Below the pieces are notes generated by a model that did not search any database, was not told the DNA's origin, and saw nothing but the letters and a program-made list of their open reading frames with translations. Positions 2,691 to 33,269 of a stretch of DNA of 64,000 nt are shown here, piece by piece. A program made the translations under genes and the position numbers. The DNA lies in contig NC_092576.1 of NCBI RefSeq assembly GCF_037975245.1, positions 19,740,111-19,804,110 on the forward strand, in the 5' to 3' direction. The stretch's first letter is position 1, and each line of letters begins with the position of its first letter. The DNA comes from Apostichopus japonicus (lineage: Eukaryota; Echinodermata; Holothuroidea; Aspidochirotida; Stichopodidae).

Positions 2691-5044
2691 TGTATGGAGG
2701 GAGAGGACTTCTCCAATGTCAGTATCAATGCTGCAATGTTGAAAAGTAAATTTTTAGTTGACAATATTTTGTCGAAATGGTACTGTTCTACCAAACTTCA
2801 GTACAACTTGTAAAAAAGGACAAAACTCATTAACTTCAATAAACTAGCCTGACCTTCAATAATTTTCCTAGCCATTGGGACACAGTCCCTAGTTCCCACA
2901 ATCACACATAGTGAGAGCAACAAATGTGAGTAAAAATCTGCACACTGGACCATGCAGGGACATATATATGCCAAAACTGTTATTTATGTTTTGTTAGTTT
3001 TTCTTGGGGGGGGGGAGGGGGATGTTTGTAACTGGAAAAGCCTGAAATAAATTATAGCAATATGCACCATGTACAGTATGCAATAATGAAGTATGTGAGC
3101 ATATTTGCTGCTATAAAGATTAAATTTGAAAATTAGCACTTACCTAAGTTCTTAAATCTGTTCTTGGACTTGTGCTTTTATACAAGATCCAGATCAGATC
3201 CTCTGATTTTATCAGACGATCATCTCTCCACGGGGTAAACTGATGCATTGATCCAGTCGCATTTGCACTCGAGCCGTACTATGGATCTGATCCTTGCCCG
3301 GGCCGGTAAAAAATTCGGATTGGAAATGTGTCATTCGCAGCCGGAAATTGCGTACTAGTAGTACATTTGGTCCAAAACTTTCGTTTTCAAGGTTCATAGC
3401 CTAGAGTGACAATGCTACGTAAGATTCATAGGTCAGTTATGATTATTATATAGTATTGTATCGACGATGGTCAGGAATTCAGGATGCAAGCTTTTTACGA
3501 AAAACACCCGATTTCGAAGAAGAGTTGACGATAAAAATCGTGTCAGTATGGACGCTAGCAACAAGTGTAGAATTTAAAACGATAGGCTCAATATTCGGAG
3601 TTGCCCTGGGACAGGGAGTACAACGTATGTGTCATAACACACGATGTTTTTGTGCGATTACACTTACAGTATCTACTGTACTACCAGGGAGTTGTAATGG
3701 GTTGCGGCACAGCTGATCTGTCAATCACTTAAAACTAGTACGGGGTGGCCAAAGGTCATTTACGGTTAGCATAATAATAATCAGGGTTACCAGCGACAAG
3801 TAACAAAAAAACGTTAGATTTGCCAAAATAAAACCCCAGAAAACGCTAGATAATCAGTTTCACTCACTTGTTATGTGTTGTTTTCAATAATTCGTTGACT
3901 GTTCGTTGCACTGGTTCATATCATAGGTAGTCTTGTGATTATTTTAACAAGTTAAAACGGTTAATAACAATCAGGAAATAATACAAGAAAATTAACTGTG
4001 GATTTTACAAAAATACTGATTCAGTCCTAATGAAAAACCCAAGTATGAAAAACCCATTAATATTAAAACAGTTCACGCGGTATTATAGTGTAAAAGCCAC
4101 GGAAGCCTATAAATATATTTTATTGGGTTGCCAAGTGGTAATTTGGTCTCAAAGTTTCAGAAAACAAAGTAATTATTTTGTGAATTACCGATTTGGTGCG
4201 ATTTTTGATAAAACGTATGCTGGAATCCTAGAAAGGTGAAAAAATACGCTAGATCTATTGTGTGAAAAGGCTAACGCTGGTAACCTTTATAATAGTACTG
4301 TAGTAGACTTGTTTAGTTGTACTGTGTAAAAATATGCACTATGGGGAGTTCTCATCAGTATTACTTGTCAAACACACATGCATGCCTATAGTCTTATTTG
4401 TGTTAGGTTAGCCTTTCTGTAGAAGTATTCATTTGTGGTTTACATGGATACATTTGGAAAATGTCGCTTTCACTTGTTTGTAAACAGTAGCACGGTGGGA
4501 TATGGGGGCAGGGGCATGGAGATCTGCCCCACATCGATGCTAACCCCAGCTCCCAACGACTTTGCTGATCCTATATAAACAACGGTCGACCTGACCACCC
4601 CCCCCTCCCCACCCAAAAAAAAAATAGCTGCATGCTTGTAAGATTAATTATGGTATATTTTTTTCAACCAGCTTGTGATCATAACATTAAAATCACTTGC
4701 TATAAAGAATATCATTATATCCCCACCCCTCCCCCCGCCTCACCCATACACAAACACATACACATTTCTGTTCCGACAAGTCCATTACAATATAGTCCTA
4801 GCCTACGGCGCTCAACCCTCCGATTTTCTACAGCCATAGCTATTTTCACTTAATTAATCGCACTAACATTGATAATACATTTAAAGCCTCCTAATGATAA
4901 TTTTGGAAAACAGTGAAATGCTTGTGTCTAATTGATAGGGTTATTTTAATTTTGTTTGGAATATAATTATACAAATTTACCAATTTACTCTGTGCATTGT
5001 GATCAACTCCTAGCTGAATCATGTTACTATATAAAGGAAAATAC
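2691..5044. other. No gene recognised
   Basis: AT-rich non-coding sequence with G-, C- and A-homopolymer tracts near 3006-3022 and 4600-4625. The short open frames (for example 3456-3716 plus and 4030-4239 plus) have no recognisable domain and no supporting splice context. Confidence 0.45.
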
Positions 5045-19509: not shown

Positions 19510-20525
19510 TGTAATTTCTTATTGCTAAATGACACTCCGAGCAGTAGGGGGTGTATCGGTACAGACTTCAGAACTGCATTCTTAGCCACCTAATGGTGTT
19601 ATTATGTTATTTCAGAACTAATGGTGTAACTTCTTGGTGCTAAATGACACTCCAACCATTAGCGGGGCGTTTTGGTACACCTCTCAGAACTGTTTTGCAA
19701 GCCACTAAATTTTGTTACTTCTTGGTGCTAAATGACACTCCAACCAGTAGCGGGGCGTATTGGTACGCCCCTTAGAACTGTATTGCAAGCCACTAAATTT
19801 TGTAACTTCTTGGTGCTAAATGACATTCCAACCAATAGTGGGGCGTATTGGTACGCCCCTCAGAACTGTATTGCAAGCCACTAAATGTTGTTACTTCTTG
19901 GTGCTAAATGACATTCCAACCAGTAGCGGGGCGTATTGGTACGCCCCTTAGAACTGTATTGCAAGCCACTAAATGTTGTTACTTCTTGGTGCTAAATGAC
20001 ACTCCAACCAGTAGCGGGGCGTATTGGTACGCCCCTTAATGGTGTCACTTCTTGGTGCTAAATGACACTCCAACCAGTAGCGGGGCGTATTGGTACGCCC
20101 CTTAGAACTGTATTGCAAGCCACTAAATTTTGTAACTTCTTGGTGCTAAATGACATTCCAACCAATAGTGGGGCGTATTGGTACGCCCCTCAGAACTGTA
20201 TTGCAAGCCACTAAATGTTGTTACTTCTTGGTGCTATATGACATTCCAACTAGTAGCGGGGCGTATTGGTACGCCCCTTAGAACTGTATTGTAAGCCACT
20301 AAATGTTGGTACTTCTTGGGGCTAAATGACACTCCAACCATTAGCGGGGCGTATTGGTACGCCCCTTAGAACTGTATTGCAAGCCACTAAATTTTGTTAC
20401 TTCTTGTTGCTAAATGACACTCCAACCAGTAGCGGGGCGTATTGGTACGCCCCTCAGAACTGTATTGTAAGCCATTAATGGTGTTTCTTCTTGGTGCTAA
20501 ATGACACTCTCTTGCAGTTGTGGGG
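19510..20525. repeat. 88-bp minisatellite, about 12 copies, each with a GGGGCGTA hairpin
   Basis: The unit begins TTGGTGCTAAATGACACTCC and contains GGGGCGTATTGGTACGCCCC, a perfect 8-bp stem with a TTGG loop. Copies start near 19638, 19724, 19812, 19900, 19987, 20054, 20143, 20230, 20317, 20404 and 20491, with a diverged copy near 19525. The copy at about 19987 is short. A two- to three-unit block near 19725-19925 recurs almost identically at 20055-20255, showing higher-order duplication. It stops about 235 bases before the left end of the large element. Confidence 0.92.
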
Positions 20526-20759
20526 TGTATTTGTTTCACTGATTCACTTTTGTACAGGGACAAGAGGTATTTTTCTTCCTTTTAATTCATGTAAGAAATT
20601 AACCTACTAAATTTCAGTTTATGGTCATGTAGATAAAATATAACATGAAATACATAAGTTGGTACAAACAAAGAATAATTTTCTCATTGTGTTATTTTTT
20701 GTCTCAAATTTATGTATCTGCAGTATGATTACAATGCATTTGCCTTTTTAACTCACATT

Positions 20760-20783
20760 CCCTGGTGGAAATTCCAGTTGAAC
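20760..20783 (+). repeat. Left terminal inverted repeat of the large element
   Basis: CCCTGGTGGAAATTCCAG plus TTGAAC matches the reverse complement of 32473-32496 at 21 of 24 positions. The end also contains its own hairpin: TTCCAGTTGAAC followed about 12 bases later by its exact complement GTTCAACTGGAA. Confidence 0.72.
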
Positions 20784-20799
20784 TTTTGAACTGGGTTCA

Positions 20800-21135
20800 A
20801 CTGGAATTTTCTATACGGAAATTGGCCCAAATTTGAACTAGGTTGAAATGGGTGAACTGGGGTTCCCAACTGTTTCAACTATGTTTAACTGGGTCCAACT
20901 GGTTCAATTATGTTTAACTGGGTCCAACTGGTTCAACTGTTTTACTGGGTCCAACTGGTTCAACTATGTTTAACTGGGTCCAACTGGGTCCAACTGGTTC
21001 AACTGTTTTACTGGGTCAACTATGTTTTACTGGGTCCAACTGGTTCAACTATGTTTTACTGGGTTCAACTGGGTCAACTATGTTTTACTACTAATATTTT
21101 TAAATAGGTTGAACTGGGATTCTCAACTGGTCCAA
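20800..21135 (+). repeat. Left subterminal tandem repeat (about 28-bp unit)
   Basis: Repeated blocks of AACTGGGTCCAACTGGTTCA with AACTATGTTT spacers, roughly 8-10 partial units. They start within 40 bases of the left inverted repeat and point inward. Clustered short motifs next to transposon ends are the usual binding sites of accessory transposition proteins in the CACTA family; that role here is inferred. Confidence 0.7.
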
Positions 21136-21179
21136 TACTCGACCCGGTTGGGATCCCCCTAAGGGTTTAAATTTAAAGG

Positions 21180-21780
21180 TTATTTGGTAAAAGAGCTCAG
21201 TATTACATATGACAATTGAATAGATAAGCTTAAATTCATGAATAGAAGGATGCCAACATATGTTGTTTGTAGAACTAAATATACTGTATTAAGAAAATGT
21301 GAAACCTACTACAATTTAAAAAAAAACATGACATTGACGAGTAAAATTTGCTGAAACCTATTTTAAAAATACAAATAACATAAAAGGCAAGGTGAAATAT
21401 ACTGGCAGGAATCTGAGGAAGTATAAGTTATGAAATACATAAGTGAGAAAGACATGACATTGTGAGAAAGTTGATAACTTATTTAAGATATACAAATAAA
21501 ATAAACGGCAAGGTGAAATAAAAATTTAAAAATAGGCAAGGTGAAACATACTGAAATATACTGGCAGGAATCTGAAGTATGAGTTATGAAATAAATAATC
21601 CTATAGTGTGAATTTGAAAAAAGGTACTTAAAGATTAAAAATATGAATCGATGGAGTGTAACAGTTTTTTACAAGATATTTAAGAATATACTCGGGTTCC
21701 AAAAGCAAATGTATATATAATTTAAGTTAAAGCACACCATCGTGGCAAGGTGAACATCTCAAAAGAAGATAAAACATCCA
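21180..21780. repeat. AT-rich left arm with a direct duplication
   Basis: Non-coding stretch between the left subterminal array and the end of the BEN gene. The motifs GGCAAGGTGAAATA and ACTGGCAGGAATCTGA recur at about 21390-21415 and 21525-21575, marking a diverged duplication of roughly 150 bp. Nothing else is recognised. Confidence 0.5.
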
Positions 21781-21832
21781 TCTCTCCCCTCCCCTCCCCT
21801 CCCTAGATATTGTAGCATGTCAGACTTTGTTT

Positions 21833-22057
21833 TTATTGGTCCTTTTTCCTTTGTGTCCTGTTCAAATCCATTATTTTTTCTGTTATAAATTTTTTAAACT
21901 TCTTTTGCTCGATGGCAAATTCCTCCTTAGAAAGGTTCTGCCTCTCCAACCGATCTTCATAGCATGCTACAAAAGGAAAGAAAAAACAGATTGATTAATC
22001 AAAAATGTCTACAGCTGTAAACATATGTATACGATAGAGAAATAAAAGCTTATGTTT

Positions 22058-22121
<64 letters not shown>

Positions 22122-22162
22122 CATATATATATACATATATATATACATATATATATATATAC

Positions 22163-22243
<81 letters not shown>

Positions 22244-25200
22244 ATACATACATCATAGCTCCCAAGTTTGGATTAGTGAGATGTGGGTCCCAGGGCTGCC
22301 AGAGTAGATCTTTACACTAAGCAGAGTGCCACTATGTTGGCAAGTAATGCATCTCAGTACATGTTAGACATGCATGTATCAACATTTTTATTGCTTGTTT
22401 AACTCATGGTTCAAAAACAGTGCAATATTATTATTAATTTTTCACTAAAGTTATCATTGCTTTATACATCAAAGAAATTATGTTAGTGCATAATGGATAA
22501 CATCCACCTTAACATTTATTATCATCAAGCTAGCATAACCACATGTTTGTTTATTTCTATAATATTATTTATGCACCAGATTTGAAATGGAATATTTGAG
22601 ATGTTGCACATATATATGTATATGTGTATGTATGGCAGGTTGCTGGTTGGCATTTTGACTCATGCCCACTTGCTCAAAATTGCATGTTAGTGTTTTGCCT
22701 AGCCAAAAATAAAGAGAGTGGGTATTTAAGTTCAAAACCTCTTATTTTATGATAAGTATTGGCAGGGTTGTAGCTAAACAATGTTCAGTGGGGGTGGACC
22801 GACACCAAAGTTTGGCACGTAGTGTACCACAACATTTATTTTCCAACAAATGACTCCCAGATTGCTTGAATATATAACTCCCATGTGACTAACCGTTTTC
22901 ACTTACCTTTCATAGTGTCCAACTTCACTGGGCTTAGAGGTGGCTTCGCAGCATTCCCTTTAAAGCGGTTGCAAGCTTTCCCATCGACGGACTTGTCTTT
23001 TAGTTTGTCAGACCCCCAAATTGCCACGGCCAGATTCTTGACAAAAACAGAATTTTTATTTTGCAGTTGAAGCATCTCCCATGTCTTCACTGGTAACCAA
23101 ACATTTTGTCCAATGTGAACCTGCAAAAAAAAATGAAACAAAATAGTCTTCACTCTTTAAAAAATACAGTAATTCACTTCATTTTCATTTCAGGATAAGC
23201 AGTTTTGTTCGGCTGAGCTTTGGAGAAAAAAAAACCTTGTGCATTGTCTGTGTTTGTACTCCCGTGACCTCTGAAATTATTACTGATAAACGTGTTGATA
23301 TTAGCTTTGAAATAGAATCACCCGAAATTACCTAAGAATTAGGTTTGTAAAATGCTAGATTGCATGAAGTGTGGGCCGACAATTAAACCACGCAACTAGT
23401 GCTATCTTACCACTGCATTTGTTCTACAAGGCGTATAGTACATGGGGCAACATAATGCAACTGGTTTTCTCGACTGGTTAACCAATGAACCGGAAATGCA
23501 CAGCACTAGTTTGATTGTGATTGTTTGGTGTAGTTATCTAACTCACTGACCATACTGACATGCACAAGCATGCTTTGTTTGTAAGCCTTTCAAACTCTCA
23601 CAATAGTTATACAGTACATGATCACTTTTTTCCAGAGGAAGAATAATTGCCTCAAGTGTTACATTCTGCCTTAATGTTGCTTAAACACTTTTGCATTACC
23701 TTATCACCAGTGGTTTTGTACTTAGAGGGGCCATCACTTCTTTCCATCCGACAAGGTTCCTCTTCAGGGACAATTTCGGGTGAAGATGGTGGAAAGGTGG
23801 TGTGCCTGGTTGGTACTTCTTTGGAATTTCTTGGATCCTTGACATCTGATGAGGGAAAATAATAAAAAAAATATTTGTATTTAATTGATATTTGAATAGA
23901 TTTATGGGTGCTGACCATGGTGTTATCTACACAATATAACAACACACTATAAAAAGTTTTTCATTTTGTTAACAGTAGATCTATAGTGTACAAATGAAGC
24001 CTTACTTGAAATTAGATCGATAGTTTAATGTTCATAATGTTCAGTGTAGGGCATCATCACATTTGTAGCATAAACGTGTATGCTGTATACTTCACTAATG
24101 ACTTTCGCAAAGTATATCATTATGCCAAAAGGACACTCCATGTTTGAACAACGGTCAAGGCAATTGGTAAATTTTGAAATATCTGTGAGCCTCTTTTGAT
24201 GGTGACATCTTAAATTGGAAACCTATGTCTAAATCAACTGGTTATTTGCACAGATATGGTATACATAGGCTATGTACATGTAACCTTGTTAGGTACAATT
24301 TCAAAATGCTTGTTAATAAGCGAGAACTTACAACTTAATAAAGCAATACTACCTTTCTTTTCACAATGTGGGCAGCTCAGTTTTTCCAACAGTGCTCTCT
24401 GCAGTCGGATGTTCAAATCCTGCACTTCTTTCATCTTTGCCCCCAGTTCCTTGTTTCTTGTCATCAGCTCTTGGTTTTTCATCTCCAGACCATGGCATTT
24501 CCTCTTCATTTCTGGTTCATCTCCAAAAACAGCACTCCTTTTTCGGCACTCAAGCCGTTCTGACAGCAATTTCTTAAGAGAGCTGCTCTTAGCTTTTTGT
24601 TGTTCTTTTTTTTTCTCTTTCTAAAAAAACATAATGGATTCCAAATTAGAATTTATTAGCTAAATCAACTTGATAATTTTGATAACAAGTGTTAATAGCA
24701 TATAATATTTCTACATGTGGATAATAATAATAATTTCAAATGTTCCCATCAAGTGCCATTGTTTTAAATAAAATATATTTTGATTGTGGGATAAATGTGG
24801 TAGACCAAAGACCAAAATATTGTAGGCCTTTTTTAATAGTACTTCGAACAGCACATTCACATATCTATCACTCTATATTAACACATACAATTTGTATTTT
24901 AGGCAGTGTTGTGAATATTAAAGACCATGAGAGTGTACATGTAAACTTTCGGTAAGCACACAGTGGGCCACCAATCTGCATTTAGTTATCAGACACTTCT
25001 TTCTATAAGTCTATATCTGTTATTTATTAACAAACATATAAAACAGATTAAAGTCCCATTTGAACTTCCATACAGGTACAGCTAGGGGTTGGGCAAAATA
25101 ATGTCCAAAGATAATGCATACAGTAGAAGAATTTTTTAACCAAGTTATGCAAAACATTCTGGCAAATCTCAGAATTTGATTGATTAAACTTGTACAGGGA

Positions 25201-26351
25201 ATGGAACTAAGTGGGTTACCTTACGTTGTGTGATTCCTGGGGATAATGAATCATTGGGCTTTAGCAGCTTACTAGTTGGTAAAACCTTCAAATATTAATT
25301 ATAGGCAAAACAATAAATGTTGAACTATGAAATCACTTCTAATCCCACCAACTCTAATAGCATTTGCAAATGTGGCCAAAGAGAATGTACTTATTGTAGC
25401 GTCTCATAAACAAGACATTGAACAATAAAATATTTACCCTTGCTTTCCCTGAATCTAACATTTCCTGTCGTAAAGATGACGAAGCACTTTCATCTTCAGA
25501 GGAGTCCTCCACTGATGTGTCAAAGACTTTGGACACTTTGACACGTGTGCCTTCTAACTTCTTCTCTAGCTCCTTTCTTGAAGCTGTAAACAAAAACAAA
25601 GAATGTGACTATTTAGTGGGTAAGATGGATCAAATGGTAAGCAGGGTTGCCATATCGGAGGGGGGGGGGGATGGAGGGAGGAAATTGGAAAAATAAAACC
25701 TAAATTTCCACCCAATAATTCTCTAGCCATTATTTACCCCCTGCTTTTAACACCCACACCCCTCCCCTCCACCTGCCTTCTCCAATTAAATTCCAAAATG
25801 TACTGGTTAAAGTACATTGTTCAAACATGCATAAGTTAAGCGACAAAATATTTATCCACAAACATATTCCCTGTGTGGTTTACCGTTTTAGTTAAAGCCT
25901 CTTTACTTGTCAACACTCTTTATATGTTAAGCTAATTATGCTGTGTTGACCGAGGCTGTTACCATCTGGTGTTCAGCTATGGTGATATGGATTAACTAGT
26001 GTAGGTGCACAAACAAAAGAGGCAAACTAACGACAGTTAATTATACTATGTAAATTGCATTGGACACAATAGCCTATATGCATATAGACTAGCCAACAGT
26101 TTGAACAAGTACAAATATAACTTACCTGCCAACAATAAAATTTGTGCCTTGTACCATGAGTCCGGGTCCTGTAAGTTGGAATCAATCTCTGTTTCATCGT
26201 CGCTGTCAATTGCCAGCCATTGTACCATATATGCTTTATTAGGTATAAAGTCTAGTTCATGCTCCGGGTGAAAGTTCTTAATGTGATTTACATTCACAAT
26301 TTCACGTTCCTGATCTTTAAGATACCTAATGTATGCATAAGAAATTGACAT
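21833..26351 (-). CDS. BEND5-like protein: coiled coil plus BEN DNA-binding domain, six exons, intact
   Basis: Exons in transcription order are 26351-26126, 25583-25438, 24620-24353, 23845-23700, 23120-22907 and 21966-21833. All have GT/AG borders and compatible phases. They sum to 1134 nt, an uninterrupted 377-residue protein. The N-terminus ([10 protein letters not shown]...[10 protein letters not shown]) resembles the start of vertebrate BEND5. The exon-3 coiled coil includes [17 protein letters not shown], close to BEND5 MKELRDLNRRLQDVLL. Exon 5 is the BEN domain ([32 protein letters not shown]), and the C-terminus includes [10 protein letters not shown]. The stop codon overlaps an AATAAA signal. 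Known: BEN domains bind DNA and mediate protein contacts in chromatin and transposon-related proteins. Inferred: as cargo of the surrounding transposon it may bind the subterminal repeats, like TnpA of En/Spm. It could also be a captured host gene. The reading frame is intact although the neighbouring transposase is not. Confidence 0.85.
22061..22240. repeat. (TA)n microsatellite with ATACAT interruptions
   Basis: About 180 bases of TATATA, with regularly spaced ATACATATATAT variants in the middle, inside the last intron of the BEN-domain gene. The long open frames of alternating Tyr and Ile on both strands here are artefacts of the repeat. Confidence 0.95.
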
Positions 26352-27431
26352 TATGCCTTATTCACTAAGCTAGGCTCCAATAAGCTAGGCAACTATAACG
26401 TTAGGTTATGTCTAACGTTAGTGAATGTAGTATTAGGAAACAGATTTGTTAGGACTAGCCTATACAATAGTCCTAGGCCACTATCAAGTTTCAGTTCAAT
26501 TCAAATATTTATGTTAAAAAGCACGTGTAAAATCAATTATAACGTTACAAGTATGTGTCAATAATATAAAGATCACAAAGAAGGGAACTCAGCCGCGGTA
26601 ATAATTTGAAATTGTTGATAAAATCTGTTACAAATTGCGATTCTGCGAGGCTTCTGTTAACGTGGGTTTGCGGTTTCGGAATTTATCAATTTAGCGCTAA
26701 CGCAAAACTAATGTCAAAGTGCAAATTCAGTCGGATCATACCATTCTGTACTAGGAAGGCATTTTGCCTACCAATTGTTCAAATCGCCGAAAAAAGTATA
26801 ACATAAATAATTTTTAAATTTGATGAACAGTAAACGTATTTTATTTTTATTTAATACGGTACAATAGTTTAATCGTTCAATCAAAACTGTGATAAATATG
26901 ACCAAGATTTATTTTACCCCCCTCATAAGTTGGCTAATTTAGCAGTTTCAATATATTACGATACGGTTACTGCTTACGAACTCTCATAATAACATTCCCG
27001 ATACAATTACGCCTAAAATAAAAGCAGTCTTGTGTATTTTTCATCTGAATTGCGATTCTTGCCTGGTCGGCTATAGGTTTATTATATTGCTAGTTTCTTC
27101 GAGAAGTTATCTCATCTACGTGCAGTTATGTAAATACAACATTTATCTATACTTTTATTGAAGTGTAATACGGTTTTGTTGCGTCGTATTGACATTGTTT
27201 GGACATTGGTACGATACTGTACATGTATTTACTGCGTGTAACCCTAGCCTAGCCGGTAGTACGGAAAGTATTTATACACCGTGCATATTTTTTACGTACA
27301 GGCGTCCATTAAATGTACCTAACGAACTTCGTTGGACTCATACTAGCCTAATTCTAGGCTAGGCTGGTCTCGGTATGCACAAGAAATATTGACAAGTTCG
27401 AATCTTGGATATCGCTGTAGGCCCTAGACAA
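26352..27431. promoter_or_regulatory. Divergent promoter region between the BEN-domain and transposase genes
   Basis: This 1.08 kb lies head-to-head between the two start codons, so it should hold both promoters and 5' leaders. Visible features are two TAACGTTAG copies within 25 bases near 26395-26425, further AACGTTA words, and AT-rich stretches. No clear TATA box can be assigned to either gene. The promoter role is inferred from geometry alone. Confidence 0.5.
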
Positions 27432-30400
27432 ATGGATCCAAATCGAGGAAGGAAAAGGAACAATGTTTCTGTTAGACCTAAGAAAAAATATAAAGGTTAC
27501 TTAGAACCTCAAAATTCTAGTGATGAAGAACCAACCATTCCTCGGAGGACCCTGAATCGTTATAAAAAAGGCAGTAAGACTCTCAAGAAGGGACAATTAG
27601 AAAACAATTGGTCCAGAGATTTCAACTGTTCCACATCCAGTGAAGATGGTAGACCTAACGATGATGTCCATAGCAGTTACGGTGAAATGGTAAGAAAACT
27701 TAATCAATAAGATATTGATACTGTAGGTCCGAATTCTCCAATATTTATAAGGTCCAGACCCAAGTGTTATGCTTAGGACCTGCCATGTAACTTATTTCAC
27801 ATGAAAAGGCTTTTAGACATTTATTTCCCCTTCAAATCAACCAAATTGCCTCACCAAACCAAAATTTAAAAAAAGGCATATTTTTATTTCCGGCCGTTAA
27901 AATGCCAAAATGATTTTTATTTCGGCCGTTAGAATGCCAAAATGATACCCTACTTTCGTGTAGGTGCAGCAAACATTGCCTGTGATGATCTTTACCTGTG
28001 AGGGAACTCTACCTGCAGCGAACTAATTTGCGGTGAACTTCATTATAAGTGACTTGTATTCGTAATTACCTGTAAATAGGCATACATATATCCTGTAGGC
28101 ATACAAACTAAGTGTCCCATGTCAAGGATCATTGGGTTTGGGTGCAGAAAAAAATTGTTCCTGATGCAGGATAATGAAAGTAAGATTGCTACCGTGGTGA
28201 TTTAAAAAAAAATGAAGCGGCTAATTTTAATTATTTTTGCAGTGTTGTACTCTGTGCCACATTCGCTTGGCCGTATATCAATTGCCATACTTGTATATTT
28301 TTCAGGTTTCTTCATCTGCTTCTGAAGGGAATTGTTCTGGAAACACTGCAGCAGCTGACTCAACAGTTGAAAGGGAGAGTGATGATTCAGGTCCACCATC
28401 TGAAGAACCCAGCAGCCCCTCATCCTCTTCAGAGACAGATAGTGATGTCCCAGCAGATGATGAAGCAGCATTCCAGGCAGATGAGACACTGAATGAACCA
28501 CTTTTCCAGGGATCACAAGTAACAAAGGCTGAGGTAATCCTGATGGTCATGACTTTTGTGATGCGGCATTGTCTGTCTACAGCTGCCATGGTGGATCTTC
28601 TGCATATTATTAATAGCATATTAGGAAGAGTTGTTATACCAGCATCAAAATATGTATTTGAGAAGTTATTTAAAAGCAATTTTTTGAATTTATCATTTCA
28701 TTTTTATTGCAGTTATTGTTTGAGCTTTGTTAGAACCTGGCAAGGCGTAAATGTAGGTGTTGTCTCTTGCCCACATTGTCAGAGAGATTGCAATGTTGGA
28801 AACATGCAAAATAGTAACTTTTTCATTACATCTAGTCTGAAGCATCAGATAAAGACTTTATTTGAAAGGGAGGACATAACAGTGAATCTGGCTTATAGGT
28901 ACAACAGACATAAGAAACAGGAAGGAAATTTGGAAGATATTTTTGATGGTGAAATTTACAAAAATCTTGAAGAAGTACATAATTTTCCAAATAACTTCAC
29001 ATACACTTTTAATACAGATGGAATGCCAGTGTTCAAGTCTGCAAGTTACTCCCTTTGGCCAATCTATATCATGATTAATGAGCTTTCACCAAGTTTAAGA
29101 ATGAAAAATTTACTGCTTGCTGGTGTATGGTTCGGCCAAAAAGGGCCTCGTATGAATATATTTTTAGAAAAGTTTGTAAGAGAAGCAAGAATTTTGGCTG
29201 ATGATGGTGTTGAGTGGGAAAATGACGGTGAAATAATTAGAAGCAAATTCTACGGAATTCGTTGTTGTGCTGATGCTCCTGCCAGGGCAGCTTTGCAAAA
29301 CCGCCTGCAGTTTAATGGATACATGGGCTGTGGTTTATGTTATCATCCAGGGCGAGCAGTAGAGAGGGTGGTCAAGTACCCTGTTGATGTTTGTGATCAT
29401 GCTGAGCGATGTGATGATGAAGTGCTGGAAGACATGGTCAAGGCTTTAGATGAAGGTCGCATCATACGTGGTGTCAAAGGTCCAACACCTGTAATAAATT
29501 TGCCAAAGTTTCCATTAGTCTGGGGTTTCCCTCCTGATTTCATGCACTGCCTTCTCCTTGGTGTAGCAAGACAACTTGCTGAACTTTGGTTTAGTAGCCC
29601 AGCAAACAGTGTCTATTATATTGGTCAACCAAATGTTTTGAATAGGCTTGATAAAATTTTCAAATCAATTAAGGTTCCATCATTTGTGTCTCGTATGCCA
29701 CGACCAATTACAGAAAGGAAACACTGGAAAGCCATTGAGTGGTACAACTGGTTATTTTATTTTTCCATCCCATGCTTGCATGGTGTTTTACCAGAGCAGT
29801 ATTTGAGACACTTCTACGCACTTGTTCAGGGTTGCTACATCTTACTTCAAAAGTCCCTTAGTCCAGAGGATGTCAATTCAGCTGATATTTTATTGTTTAA
29901 TTTTGTAGGTCATATGCAGTTGCTTTATGGGGAAAAAGCAATGACTTCCAATGTCCACTCATTAGTCCATCTGGCAAAAAGTGTCAAAATGTGGGGACCT
30001 CTTTGGACGCATTCATGTTTCCCCTTTGAAACAGCAAATGGAGAAATCAAGAATGTCTTAAAGGGCAATAGGGGTATAATGCTACAAGCCATGTACAAGT
30101 TTTTCCTTGTAAGGGCTCTGCCATTGTTTGGAGCAAATTATTGGTATCCGACAGAATCAAAGCCTTCTGTAAAGAAATGCTTTCTCCCCGAAAGCTCAAG
30201 CCAACAGAATTTATGGATTCAGTGGAATTATATGGCGCAGGCTCTGTTCAGCTATTAAGTAATGCTGAGCAAAATGCTTTACTTGTCAATGAACTTGAAG
30301 TAGTAAATGAAGCAGTGGTATATAAGCGTTTGGGGAAAGATGGTATCATATATCATTCACAGCAATACACCAAAGCTACACGGCGCAACTGCACAATGTT

Positions 30401-30671
30401 TTACTTGTCAAATGGACAGGTTGGAAGGATCCAAAAAGTGTTATGTATACAAAATGAATGCATTATTTTGTATAAAATGATGCACTTTGTCCCAGATAAT
30501 GGTTTTCAAGACCCACAAAACAATACTGATGTTTTCCACATAAAGTTGTGTGCACATCTTTCTGAAAATGTCTCAGCAATTGCAGCAACTGAACTGTGTG
30601 GAAGTTGTTTTTTAGTTGATGTTGGCGAGAGGAGTTTCATATGTTTCCCAGCCAGCTATGTGGCTTTATAG
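27432..30671 (+). CDS. TNP2/EnSpm-type transposase, two exons, one frameshift near the C-terminus
   Basis: Exon 1 is 27432-27689 (ATG at 27432, 86 codons, basic and rich in charged residues, donor GTAAGA). Exon 2 begins at 28306 after TTTTTCAG in the same phase. Residue numbers count from that ATG. The protein shows an acidic Ser/Glu/Asp-rich stretch (about 90-155), a helical region of the kind found at the N-terminus of animal TNP2-like proteins, and a C-x2-C plus CPHC zinc-binding segment. The DDE-type core follows: TDGMPVFKS with Asp near 324, CCADAPARAAL with Asp near 409, and PPDFMHCLLLGV with Asp near 497. The main frame stops at 30256-30258, but the family-typical C-terminus (YHSQQYTKATRRN) continues in another frame up to 30671. 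This implies a one-base-class frameshift near 30120-30165, or an assembly error. No plausible intron reconciles the frames. An AATAAA lies at 30822. Family assignment is strong; activity is doubtful. Confidence 0.88.
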
Positions 30672-31084
30672 TATTGCACATATTTACTTGAAAAAGATAG
30701 GTACACAGCACTAATTCATTTAATTATGTGAACTCAACAACATTGTTACTTATGATTAAGAACAGAGAGTTAGCAACCATTAATTATATCAATCATATAC
30801 AATACACATGCTAACACACACAATAAAATGGGGGCCTTGGCCTTCTTTTTTTATGTCTAATGAAACCCTGGGTAGAACAATCCATGAGCAGGCTTTTGTT
30901 CACATGTTCTACATGTTTTGGGCCAGAAAGAGTTACTGTACATATTTTACCTGTGGTCAGTGCAGTGCAATGACAGCTGTTCAGCTAGAAAGTTGCTATC
31001 TACAGGGTTTCACTCAACCATGAAAGTCATGGGGATGATTCATTTAGGGGTGCCTGATGCTGCAGCCTTTAATTGTTAAACCTT

Positions 31085-31850
31085 TGTGAATGCAACAATG
31101 CAATTTCTTTATACTTCATGCAATATATAGTTTGGACATGGAATATTACTTTTTCCATCTTACACTGTATTATGATATTACAATGTGCAAATATATAATA
31201 CATTATATCAATGATTATATATTATATAATATAGAATAAATCTATATTATAAGCTAATACACTGTGTGTTTTGTTTATATTATTTTTTATCATTTCATGG
31301 GGGAGGTAACTATCAGTACTTTATTACAAGTTCTTAGATTAGAACTAGGGCATTGGAATATGTCACTACATGTATAGACTGTATATATATATATATATAT
31401 ATATAAGTCGATCGGTGAATTAACTGGTTCCTCATCTTACCATTAAGCCAATCTATCCTACTTTTACTTCTATATCTTCCTCATCAAAAATTACCTTAAT
31501 ACTTCATGCGATACAGTTTGAACATGGAGTATTACTTTTTTCAACTTATTAAGATATTACAATGTGCAAATATATAAAACATCATATCAACGATTTTGCA
31601 TGATAAAGAATAAAACTATATTATAAATTGAATGCACTGTGTGTTTTGTTTATTTTTTATCCTTTTATGTGGGAGGTAAATAACTATCAGTATTTTATTG
31701 GTAATACATCATTACAAGTTCTTAGATGAGGACCAGGGCATTGGGAAATGTCACTAGCTTCCTGTATATACTGTCAATTAATTGGTTCCTGTTATTAACA
31801 TAAAGCCATTCTATCCTAGTTTTAGTTGTATATCTTCTTCATTAAAAACC
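31085..31850 (+). repeat. Two-copy direct duplication inside the right arm of the element
   Basis: The stretch from about 31105 (CTTCATGCAATATATAG, CTGTGTGTTTTGTTTAT, AAGCCAATCTATCCTA) recurs from about 31500 to 31850 with scattered differences, giving a unit near 370 bp. The first copy holds a (TA)n run at 31383-31405. No coding potential is seen. Confidence 0.65.
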
Positions 31851-32470
31851 TGTAAAAACCAACAGCCTACTTCAAACCTGTGCAAAACCAATGAACCCTT
31901 GTTCAACCCCAGCTAGGCAGGTTCACAAGTCAACAGTCTAAACCCAGTTGGGCCAGTGCAAAACCAGTGAAACCTAGTTCAACCCATCCGGGCAAGTTCA
32001 CCAGTCAACATAGTCCAAACCCAGTTGGGCCAATGTGAAACCTAGTTCAAACCCAACAGGGAAATTTCACCAGTCAACATAGTTCAAACCCAGTTGGGCC
32101 AGTGTGAAACCTAGTTCAATCACAACAGGGCAAGTTCACCAGTAAACACAGTTCAAACCCAGTTGGGCCTGTGCAAACCAGTGAAACCTAGTTAAACCCC
32201 AGCTGGGTCAGTTCACCAGCCAACATAGTTCAAACCCAGTTGGGCTAGTGCAAAAACCAGTGAAACCTAGTTGAAGCCCAGCTGGACCAGTTCAAACATA
32301 GTTCAAATTCAGTTGGGCCTGAACAAACCCAGTTGAACATTGTGTAAACCCAGTTGAACCTAGCTCATGTACAGCATAGCCCAGTTGGAACCCAGTAAGA
32401 CCCAGTTAAACACAGTTAAAAACCAGTTAAACATAGTAGGCCCTAGTAGAACCTAGTTGATTTTTTAACT
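31850..32470 (-). repeat. Right subterminal tandem repeat (about 80-bp unit)
   Basis: About six or seven diverged units with the blocks AACCCAGTTGGGCC, CCAGTGAAACCTAGTTC and CACCAGTCAACATAGTT. Their reverse complements share the CAACTGGG and AACTATGTT cores of the left repeat. Relative to the element both arrays point inward, so they are inverted copies of one motif set rather than chance minisatellites. Confidence 0.7.
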
Positions 32471-32472
32471 GG

Positions 32473-32496
32473 GTTCTACTGGAATTTCTACTAGGG
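32473..32496 (-). repeat. Right terminal inverted repeat of the large element
   Basis: Read on the minus strand it begins CCCTAGTAGAAATTCCAG and pairs with the left end at 20760. A second CCCTAGTAGAAC-like block lies about 55 bases further in, making a local inverted repeat at this end too. Confidence 0.72.
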
Positions 32497-33269
32497 TTTT
32501 GAAGGTTTAAAGACAATGACAGTCATAGCGTAGATTTTTCCCTTATATATACCATATTTTTATACCCGAGTGCAAACGTCATTAAAAGCAGTATAATTTC
32601 TGGTAAATTTATCAATGTTGAACAAAAAGTTTTTTTTTCCTAGGATAAAAGTCAGGTTTAAATAGTTCCTAGAAACCCTAAATGTTTCCTAGCCTCTTAC
32701 ATACATTTCCTATTCGTATTACATTTAAAGTGGTTTGGAGGGTATGAACACATCTTTGCCCAAAAAACTTTGCCTAAGCGACGTCCATGCCCCAATTGAA
32801 ATTTGCACGTGGATTCTCTCCTCACATAGTCCTTAGGTTGTTCTCGTCTGACATGTCTTCCAGTTCCAACACTTACTGTTGCATTTATTGGGATAAATAT
32901 AAATACTGCGGCATAAAAGCATCAGTCTTTCAAACTTTTTTTTACTTTAGTGACCTTGCCACACGCAAATTTCAATTGGGAACGAGATGGCTCTATGACC
33001 GATTATTCCGTAATTTACATTGGGGCAGTCGGCTTCGCTAAAACGACAAGAAAAAGCAGGAACAATAACACCTTATTAAAATTAGACCGTTAAATGTCTC
33101 ACGCAGTGTATCAAATCTCCTCTCTGGTTTGGGTTGTTTGTCGAGTCCAATATAGAGTAGGTTGCAACTAAACTTACACACTAAGTGCACACTGCTGAAG
33201 TACACTACGCCGAGCTCACTTTGTTATCATCATAATGACGTCACATGTCACTGTAGATCACGCGATCAT
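32497..33269. other. No gene recognised
   Basis: Non-coding flank to the right of the large element. It begins TTTTGAAGG directly after the inverted repeat; no duplication of the left flank beyond TT is seen. Confidence 0.4.

Follow-up and report, generated by a model that had tools for sequence, protein, structure and literature searches.

Two genes lie next to each other in a 64,000-bp stretch of the sea cucumber Apostichopus japonicus genome (contig C16, 19740111-19804110; hereafter the window), a TNP2-family transposase gene and a divergent gene for a BEN-domain protein. Do they belong to one mobile element, and what would a BEN protein do there? The initial annotation of the window had proposed an EnSpm-like transposon bounded by terminal inverted repeats (TIRs) at 20760 and 32496. 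Searches in the 671.6-Mb, 35-contig genome revealed that this block is a real multi-copy DNA transposon and that both genes move as one unit. We consider it probable that the block is a two-gene animal TRC transposon of the CACTA/En-Spm superfamily, whose BEN protein binds the subterminal arrays, pairs the ends for TNP2 and/or controls the region shared by the two genes.

Copies, ends and unoccupied sites

The four best places besides the window copy (W), together with 12 of the other 35 in the left-end list, were fetched and compared. Divergence was estimated as substitutions by region, with gaps left out. Copy A (C17:24.99 Mb) and copy B (C12:7.59 Mb) run end to end, with 0.2-1.0% and 0.9-4.3% substitutions relative to the window. 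Copy D (C17:16.52 Mb; 2.1-5.6%) runs nearly end to end and has decayed: it carries an additional insertion, and its left terminus is damaged. Large insertions interrupt copy C (C17:22.13 Mb), which was compared without its right end. The expectation that several long copies share the two genes and the ends was borne out by A, B and, nearly, D.

The target of copy A is itself a repeat, and unoccupied versions of it were found. When the 300-bp flanks of copy A were joined with one TA, they matched locus L032 at 98.8% over 600 bp, with 218 of 218 bases identical nearest the junction, and loci L014 and L005 at ∼90% over 600 bp; two partial matches at 81-83% also spanned the junction. The filled site reads ...CAGCTTA/CCCTGG...CTAGGG/TAGAGAG and the empty one ...CAGCTTAGAGAG. 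As the annotation had anticipated, these paralogues lack exactly the element (11.6 kb in copy A) plus one copy of the TA duplication. Eleven joins (nine from family 1, to which the window element belongs, and two from family 2, described below) were tested against the fetched loci and the window, and one of the 11 had unoccupied paralogues. Because copy A is near-identical to the window copy and the paralogous sites lack exactly the element and one TA, the two genes move together.

The ends are not single-copy: the left-end search gave 172 candidates, of which the best 40 were scored. At the 39 scored places other than the window, the match started at window positions 20756-20761 in 36 cases, at 20749 in two and at 20769 in one, and in the end-to-end copies it stopped at 32497-32499. 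The TIRs, at the limits first annotated, are 19 bp long and imperfect, with CCCTGGTGGAAATTCCAGT on the left and, read inward, CCCTAGTAGAAATTCCAGT on the right being identical at 17 of 19 positions. One terminus starts CCCTGGTGG... and the other CCCTAGTAG..., so that both begin with CCC (CCCTGG and CCCTAG). Identical 2-bp flanks were found at eight of the nine scored insertions of this family (TT, TA, AT, AC, AT, GA, TT, TT), L017 being the ninth. This count of target-site duplications (TSDs) omits 8 of the 17 places compared: L018, with the flanks of L017; L021, L024 and L027, whose ends are mutated or lie within runs of G; D, with its damaged left end; and C, L023 and L028, compared without a right end.

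CCC termini and 2-bp TSDs are described for animal TRC elements (PMC1636069), whereas the plant CACTA type has a CACTA core at its termini and a 3-bp TSD. Because of its CCC termini and 2-bp TSDs, the element was placed in the animal TRC branch; the label "EnSpm-like" holds at the level of the superfamily and is narrowed to the CCC-ended branch. SmTRC1 and other animal TRC elements also have a Transposase_21 gene, CCC-starting TIRs and 2-bp TSDs, and the TIR of Tribolium TRC starts CCCTAGTAG, as does the right end of the sea cucumber element (PMC1636069). The cited sections of that paper describe spliced TNP2-derived products and no BEN gene, whereas in the 11.7-kb sea cucumber element the BEN gene is separate and divergent and the subterminal arrays are long.

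The two genes and the subterminal arrays

The window TNP2 matched Pfam Transposase_21 (PF02992) at E=2.5e-8, with 33.8 bits against a cut-off of 28.6 (37.5 bits for the protein P0001), in agreement with its annotation. We take TNP2 to be a DDE-type enzyme by family. Among its protein relatives (53 proteins; 7992 candidates scored), identity was 50-57% in a crinoid, a sea star, sea urchins and a sturgeon (Huso), and 30-46% in ticks, insects and molluscs. In an alignment of 14 of the 53, D280, D283, D307, E328, D392, D480 and E547 (P0001 numbering) were invariant and E644 nearly so. Compared with copy A and P0001, the window TNP2 has a frameshift in exon 2 near 30.14 kb, so that only the BEN gene is intact here. 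In copy A, exon 2 is open (788 codons) and 100% identical to P0001, and exon 1 is shortened. Copy B has a frameshift in exon 2, and TNP2 is broken in D. A vertebrate TNP2 was also observed: P0016 of the sturgeon Huso huso, with 50% identity to the transposase of the element, lies on a chromosome-size contig.

The BEN gene (minus strand; TNP2 is on the plus strand) has six exons encoding 377 amino acids (aa) and corresponds to the NCBI model P0054. All five introns carry GT..AG, and Pfam BEN (PF10523) was matched at E=2.2e-7 by the 377-aa P0054 and at 2.5e-7 by a 399-aa model (31.2-31.4 bits against a cut-off of 23.2). The description of this gene as divergent and intact thus stood. A seventh exon at 25220-25285 was dropped; it is 67-68 nt long in the alignment of the other copies and missing from P0054. 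In W, A and B, each of which has a TNP2 lesion, the gene keeps an open frame and every splice signal; in D it is broken. Copy A encodes P0054 (same letters, by eye).

A profile of the BEN protein found the Insv-BEN/DNA structure 4ix7 at E=5.6e-5 and 4x0g at 0.38, whereas P0054 as a single query found no BEN structure. An AlphaFold2 model from a six-sequence alignment had a mean predicted local distance difference test score (pLDDT) of 70 and a predicted template-modelling (TM) score of 0.35; its N- and C-terminal domains are confidently predicted, and disordered stretches separate them. Most blocks of the predicted BEN region scored 81-91, with lower values at 311-320 and at the very end. In Foldseek, the C-terminal domain best matched Bsg25A (4x0g) and Insv (4ix7) (E 2.3e-4 to 2.7e-4; TM by target 0.74-0.80), and the N-terminal domain weakly matched Tudor domains (best E 0.095). 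NCBI labels P0054, P0055 and P0057 "BEN domain-containing protein 5-like"; this label and what we take to be the domain layout of BEND5 only point toward BEND5.

The annotation had also implied that BEN is kept with TNP2. Among the matches listed (the best 53 of 462 for TNP2 and 109 of 116 scored for BEN), BEN exons were present at all five loci with a close TNP2, that is, at least 86% identity, with one stretch each lower in W (83%) and C (75%). BEN fragments at 68-80% identity without a listed TNP2 were found at C2:25.45, C2:25.56 and C16:29.85 Mb. At the two C2 places, BEN fragments and divergent left ends (C2:25448057/25489753 and C2:25563484/25605099) are spaced 41.7 and 41.6 kb apart, as if one block had been duplicated. 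No single-copy host locus for the BEN gene was seen in this genome, the gene lying inside the element (synteny in other echinoderms was not covered). For W-A, W-B and W-D, coding sequence diverged no more than introns did, but in A-B the BEN coding part (2.2%) diverged slightly more than its introns (2.1%). As a sign of selection, these figures may offer weak support.

The arrays at both ends consist of inward-facing subterminal repeats, as annotated and as in plant-type CACTA elements. The left array has ∼29-bp units and the right one 69-79-bp units, in opposite orientation: AACTGG and CCAGTT occur 15 times and once on the left, and once and 11 times on the right. The 10.7-kb interior has four AACTGG and one CCAGTT. 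The motif CCAACTGG was counted 6+6 times at the ends, facing inward, 0 times in the interior and 2+2 times in the remaining 52 kb of the window. It differs by a single base from CCAATTGG, the BEND5/Insv site. The BEN domain of Insv binds CCAATTGG as a dimer, and Insv forms multimers (PMC6317261); the site reported for BEND5 is CCAATTGG or TCYAATHRGAA (PMC5768337, citing a 2013 Genes Dev paper). Neither exact CCAATTGG nor TCYAATHRGAA is present in the window. Exact CCAATTGG occurs in the left arrays of family 2, once in L029 and twice in L030. Read from the motifs, the case for a CCAATTGG-like candidate site in the arrays is suggestive, not decisive.

Table 1. Positions of the element and its parts in the window.
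Feature	Position	Strand	Basis
Whole transposon, 11,737 bp	20760..32496	+	alignment over the full length with copies A (C17) and B (C12) and over nearly the full length with D (C17); unoccupied sites of copy A
TSD, left copy, TT (2 bp)	20758..20759		sequence and flank comparison
TSD, right copy, TT (2 bp)	32497..32498		sequence and flank comparison
Left TIR CCCTGGTGGAAATTCCAGT	20760..20778	+	sequence; retained in most other copies compared
Right TIR CCCTAGTAGAAATTCCAGT, read inward	32478..32496	-	sequence; copy comparison
Left subterminal array, AACTGG x15, CCAACTGG x6	20760..21160	+	motif counts
Right subterminal array, inward-facing, CCAGTT x11, CCAGTTGG x6	31850..32496	-	motif counts
BEN exon 6, end of BEN domain and stop	21833..21966	-	spliced Pfam 2.2e-7 to 2.5e-7
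BEN exon 5, first part of BEN domain	22907..23120	-	Pfam BEN 2.5e-5 for exon 5 alone
BEN exon 4	23700..23845	-	gene model, copy comparison
BEN exon 3, long helices	24353..24620	-	gene model; predicted structure
BEN exon 2	25438..25583	-	gene model, copy comparison
BEN exon 1, Tudor-like N-terminal domain	26126..26351	-	gene model; weak fold match
Region between the divergent genes, retained in short derivatives	26364..27029		matched in 10/10 two-ended derivatives
TNP2 exon 1, 86 codons	27432..27689	+	open frame and copy comparison
TNP2 exon 2, open to past the frameshift near 30.14 kb	28306..30258	+	Transposase_21 E=2.5e-8
TNP2 C-terminal part, in a different frame (frameshift by comparison with copy A and P0001)	30141..30671	+	copy comparison

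An 88-bp tandem array (window 20000-20566) lies directly to the left of the element.

Shorter copies were also compared. Ten of the 12 are two-ended and mostly ∼3 kb long (L021 ∼5 kb), consisting of the ends, one or two pieces of a BEN intron and the region between the genes; in L023 and L028 the left end alone was detected. The inter-gene region was matched nearly at full length (in L025 at 71% identity, 26364-26995), and no coding exon of either gene was matched over at least 60 bases. CCAACTGG/CCAGTTGG is retained near both ends in the four derivatives checked. The short copies resemble what derivatives of an autonomous two-gene element, mobilised in trans, would look like. Two of them, L017 and L018 (C7:0.89 and 0.86 Mb), are 3-kb derivatives with identical flanks near their ends and are probably a local duplication carrying one insertion.

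BEN genes in other families and organisms

BEN genes are present inside at least two related transposon families of the sea cucumber genome. L029:899-6532 and L030:1052-6863 (C1:16.91 and C9:27.10 Mb) are BEN-only elements of 5.6-5.8 kb, here called family 2, with ends CCCAGGAGAAAATTCC.../CCCAGGTGAAAATTCC... (also given as CCCAGG...AAAATTCC). They have 2-bp TSDs in two of two cases (CC and TT, the CC one adjoining a run of C), AACTGG/AACAGG arrays and a degenerate BEN gene, and TNP2 had no match in either. Family 2 is a non-autonomous TRC-type family. A third such element lies in L031, where one such end was seen. BEN matches at 44-57% identity made up 41 of the 75 listed, and three of these 41 were looked at, L029 and L030 having been chosen deliberately. 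Separately, 13 of 27 PF10523 matches in the genome share a 119-aa open frame, many with equal scores (C16:21846274, C2:18945875, C13:7592900); this is possibly another mobile family.

Other pairings of the two genes were sought. A TNP2-BEN pair at C3:12.24 Mb was rejected, its BEN gene lying in a family-2 element with its terminus at L031:5028 and the TNP2 match ending at 5031. At C17:19.43 Mb, TNP2 and BEN lie ∼8 kb apart on one strand, both truncated, and no element ends were found at this locus, whose BEN match is another of the 41 at 44-57% identity. The upstream regions of three other TNP2 families (L034, L035 and L036) were searched. At L035:1430-5623 (minus strand; C16:1.364-1.372 Mb), a divergent gene upstream of TNP2 includes one exon that may be Tudor-like and an exon pair weakly resembling BEN, whose intron phase equals that of the window BEN gene. 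Comparison of this pair with BEN by hhalign was weak (E=0.015, probability 3%). Shuffled sequences scored as high in 5 of 1802 reported cases (2000 made) on the BEN-part profile and in 25 of 1625 on the full profile; in pairwise comparisons, 0 of 500 shuffles reached the real score against P0054 and P0060, and 77, 63 and 328 of 500 did so against P0055, P0058 and P0057. Pfam gave no match on this divergent gene (one query had an incorrect exon junction). At L036:2516-2845 (plus strand; C1:18.50 Mb), a possible Tudor-like exon, seen by eye, is divergent from the third TNP2 family. L035 and L036 are leads, not evidence.

In the crinoid Anneissia, the BEN protein P0057 was matched at 40% identity over 98% by a profile of sea cucumber and tick BEN proteins; the crinoid TNP2 protein P0002 was matched, in the TNP2 search, at 56% identity. 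Each lies on a contig of 978,448 bp, presumably the same one. The TNP2-BEN association is probably not a one-off capture, because the crinoid has both proteins and the BEN-only family has similar ends. Linkage was not seen in the tick Ixodes scapularis: it has a TNP2 (P0020) and a BEN protein (P0055), but the longest contigs reported for them differ.

Role of the BEN protein

In plants, TnpA recognises the subterminal repeats and is needed together with TnpD (PMC2613891, PMC1636069). Maize En/Spm and soybean Tgmt likewise have a catalytic tnp2-type protein and a second element-encoded protein, many subterminal repeats, and deletion derivatives that can be mobilised in trans (PMC2613891). Unlike in the sea cucumber element, their TnpA is an alternatively spliced product of the same transcription unit, their ends are CACTA, and Tgmt makes a 3-bp instead of a 2-bp duplication (PMC2613891). 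The host proteins Insensitive, Bsg25A/Elba1 (4ix7, 4x0g) and BEND5 share the BEN fold, and the candidate site is one base from CCAATTGG; their genes act in transcription or insulation, whereas the sea cucumber BEN gene lies within a mobile element. To our knowledge, plant TnpA is not a BEN protein.

In the model that we propose, TNP2 would cut and join at the CCC termini, duplicating 2 bp of the target. The BEN-solo protein, with its Tudor-like N-terminus, long helices and BEN domain, would bind the inward-facing arrays as dimers or multimers, bring both ends together for TNP2 and/or control the region between the genes, and so might fill the role of plant TnpA through an unrelated protein. 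A TnpA-like end binder is our best guess from motif and predicted fold, and we infer that BEN may perform synapsis and be needed for transposition. Several observations weigh against this model. Among 256 8-bp palindromes ranked by one-mismatch neighbours, CCAATTGG came third in the family-1 arrays, CCAGCTGG being first, and 12th in family 2. No BEN was found in the 7.9 kb upstream of L034, another TNP2 family. The exon-free derivatives fit trans-mobilisation but carry no information on BEN. Moreover, in each of the four end-to-end copies that were examined, at least one of the two genes is not plainly intact, and present activity is therefore unproven.

BEN could instead be a passenger: a TRC element would have taken up a host BEND5-like gene and carried it along, the gene playing no part in transposition. 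Family 2 speaks for this, having spread a degenerate BEN without selection, with TAA in the matched frame in 36 of the 41 BEN matches of its class. On the other hand, BEN is intact in all three young end-to-end copies, crinoid relatives of both proteins are on contigs of 978,448 bp, and the subterminal motif is close to the BEN site, and we consider a passenger unlikely. Somewhat less credit still is given to BEN as a self-regulator or chromatin shield, which would repress its own divergent promoter or recruit modifiers via the Tudor-like domain and not act in synapsis. BEND5 is described as a sequence-specific repressor (PMC7764960, PMC5768337), plant TnpA also regulates its own promoter (PMC1636069), and a Tudor-like domain was weakly matched; the candidate motif, however, occurs in both terminal arrays and is absent from the interior, including the inter-gene region. 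That a TNP2 element and an unrelated BEN repeat look like a unit by chance has next to no probability. The locus at C3:12.24 Mb, with a BEN-only family-2 element sitting within or up against another TNP2 gene, is one such chance case, but W, A and B match end to end, with common ends and TSDs, and the unoccupied sites, from which all 11.6 kb of copy A are absent, already refute it.

The TnpA-like role of BEN would supply a plausible missing second factor for animal CACTA relatives, and a TNP2-BEN partnership in end binding can be put to the test. In the accessible text of the open-access literature (Repbase and subscription papers being outside the scope), we came across no account of a CACTA-type element with a BEN gene, nor of such a mobile-element setting for BEN-domain proteins. 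Tentatively, and with distinctly less than even confidence, BEN proteins might be ancient, standing TnpA-equivalents of animal TRC elements, from which host BEN-solo genes such as BEND5 would have been domesticated with the end motif kept as a regulatory site. A descent of the vertebrate BEN-solo repressors, and of their CCAATTGG-like sites, from a transposon system can likewise be tested. DUF4806 is given as a BEN subtype in a 2024 zebrafish paper (PMC11075544), and a table of the Hydra genome has DUF4806 in a row with several helix-turn-helix and transposase-type domains (PMC7642931), which hints at a wider association of BEN with transposons.

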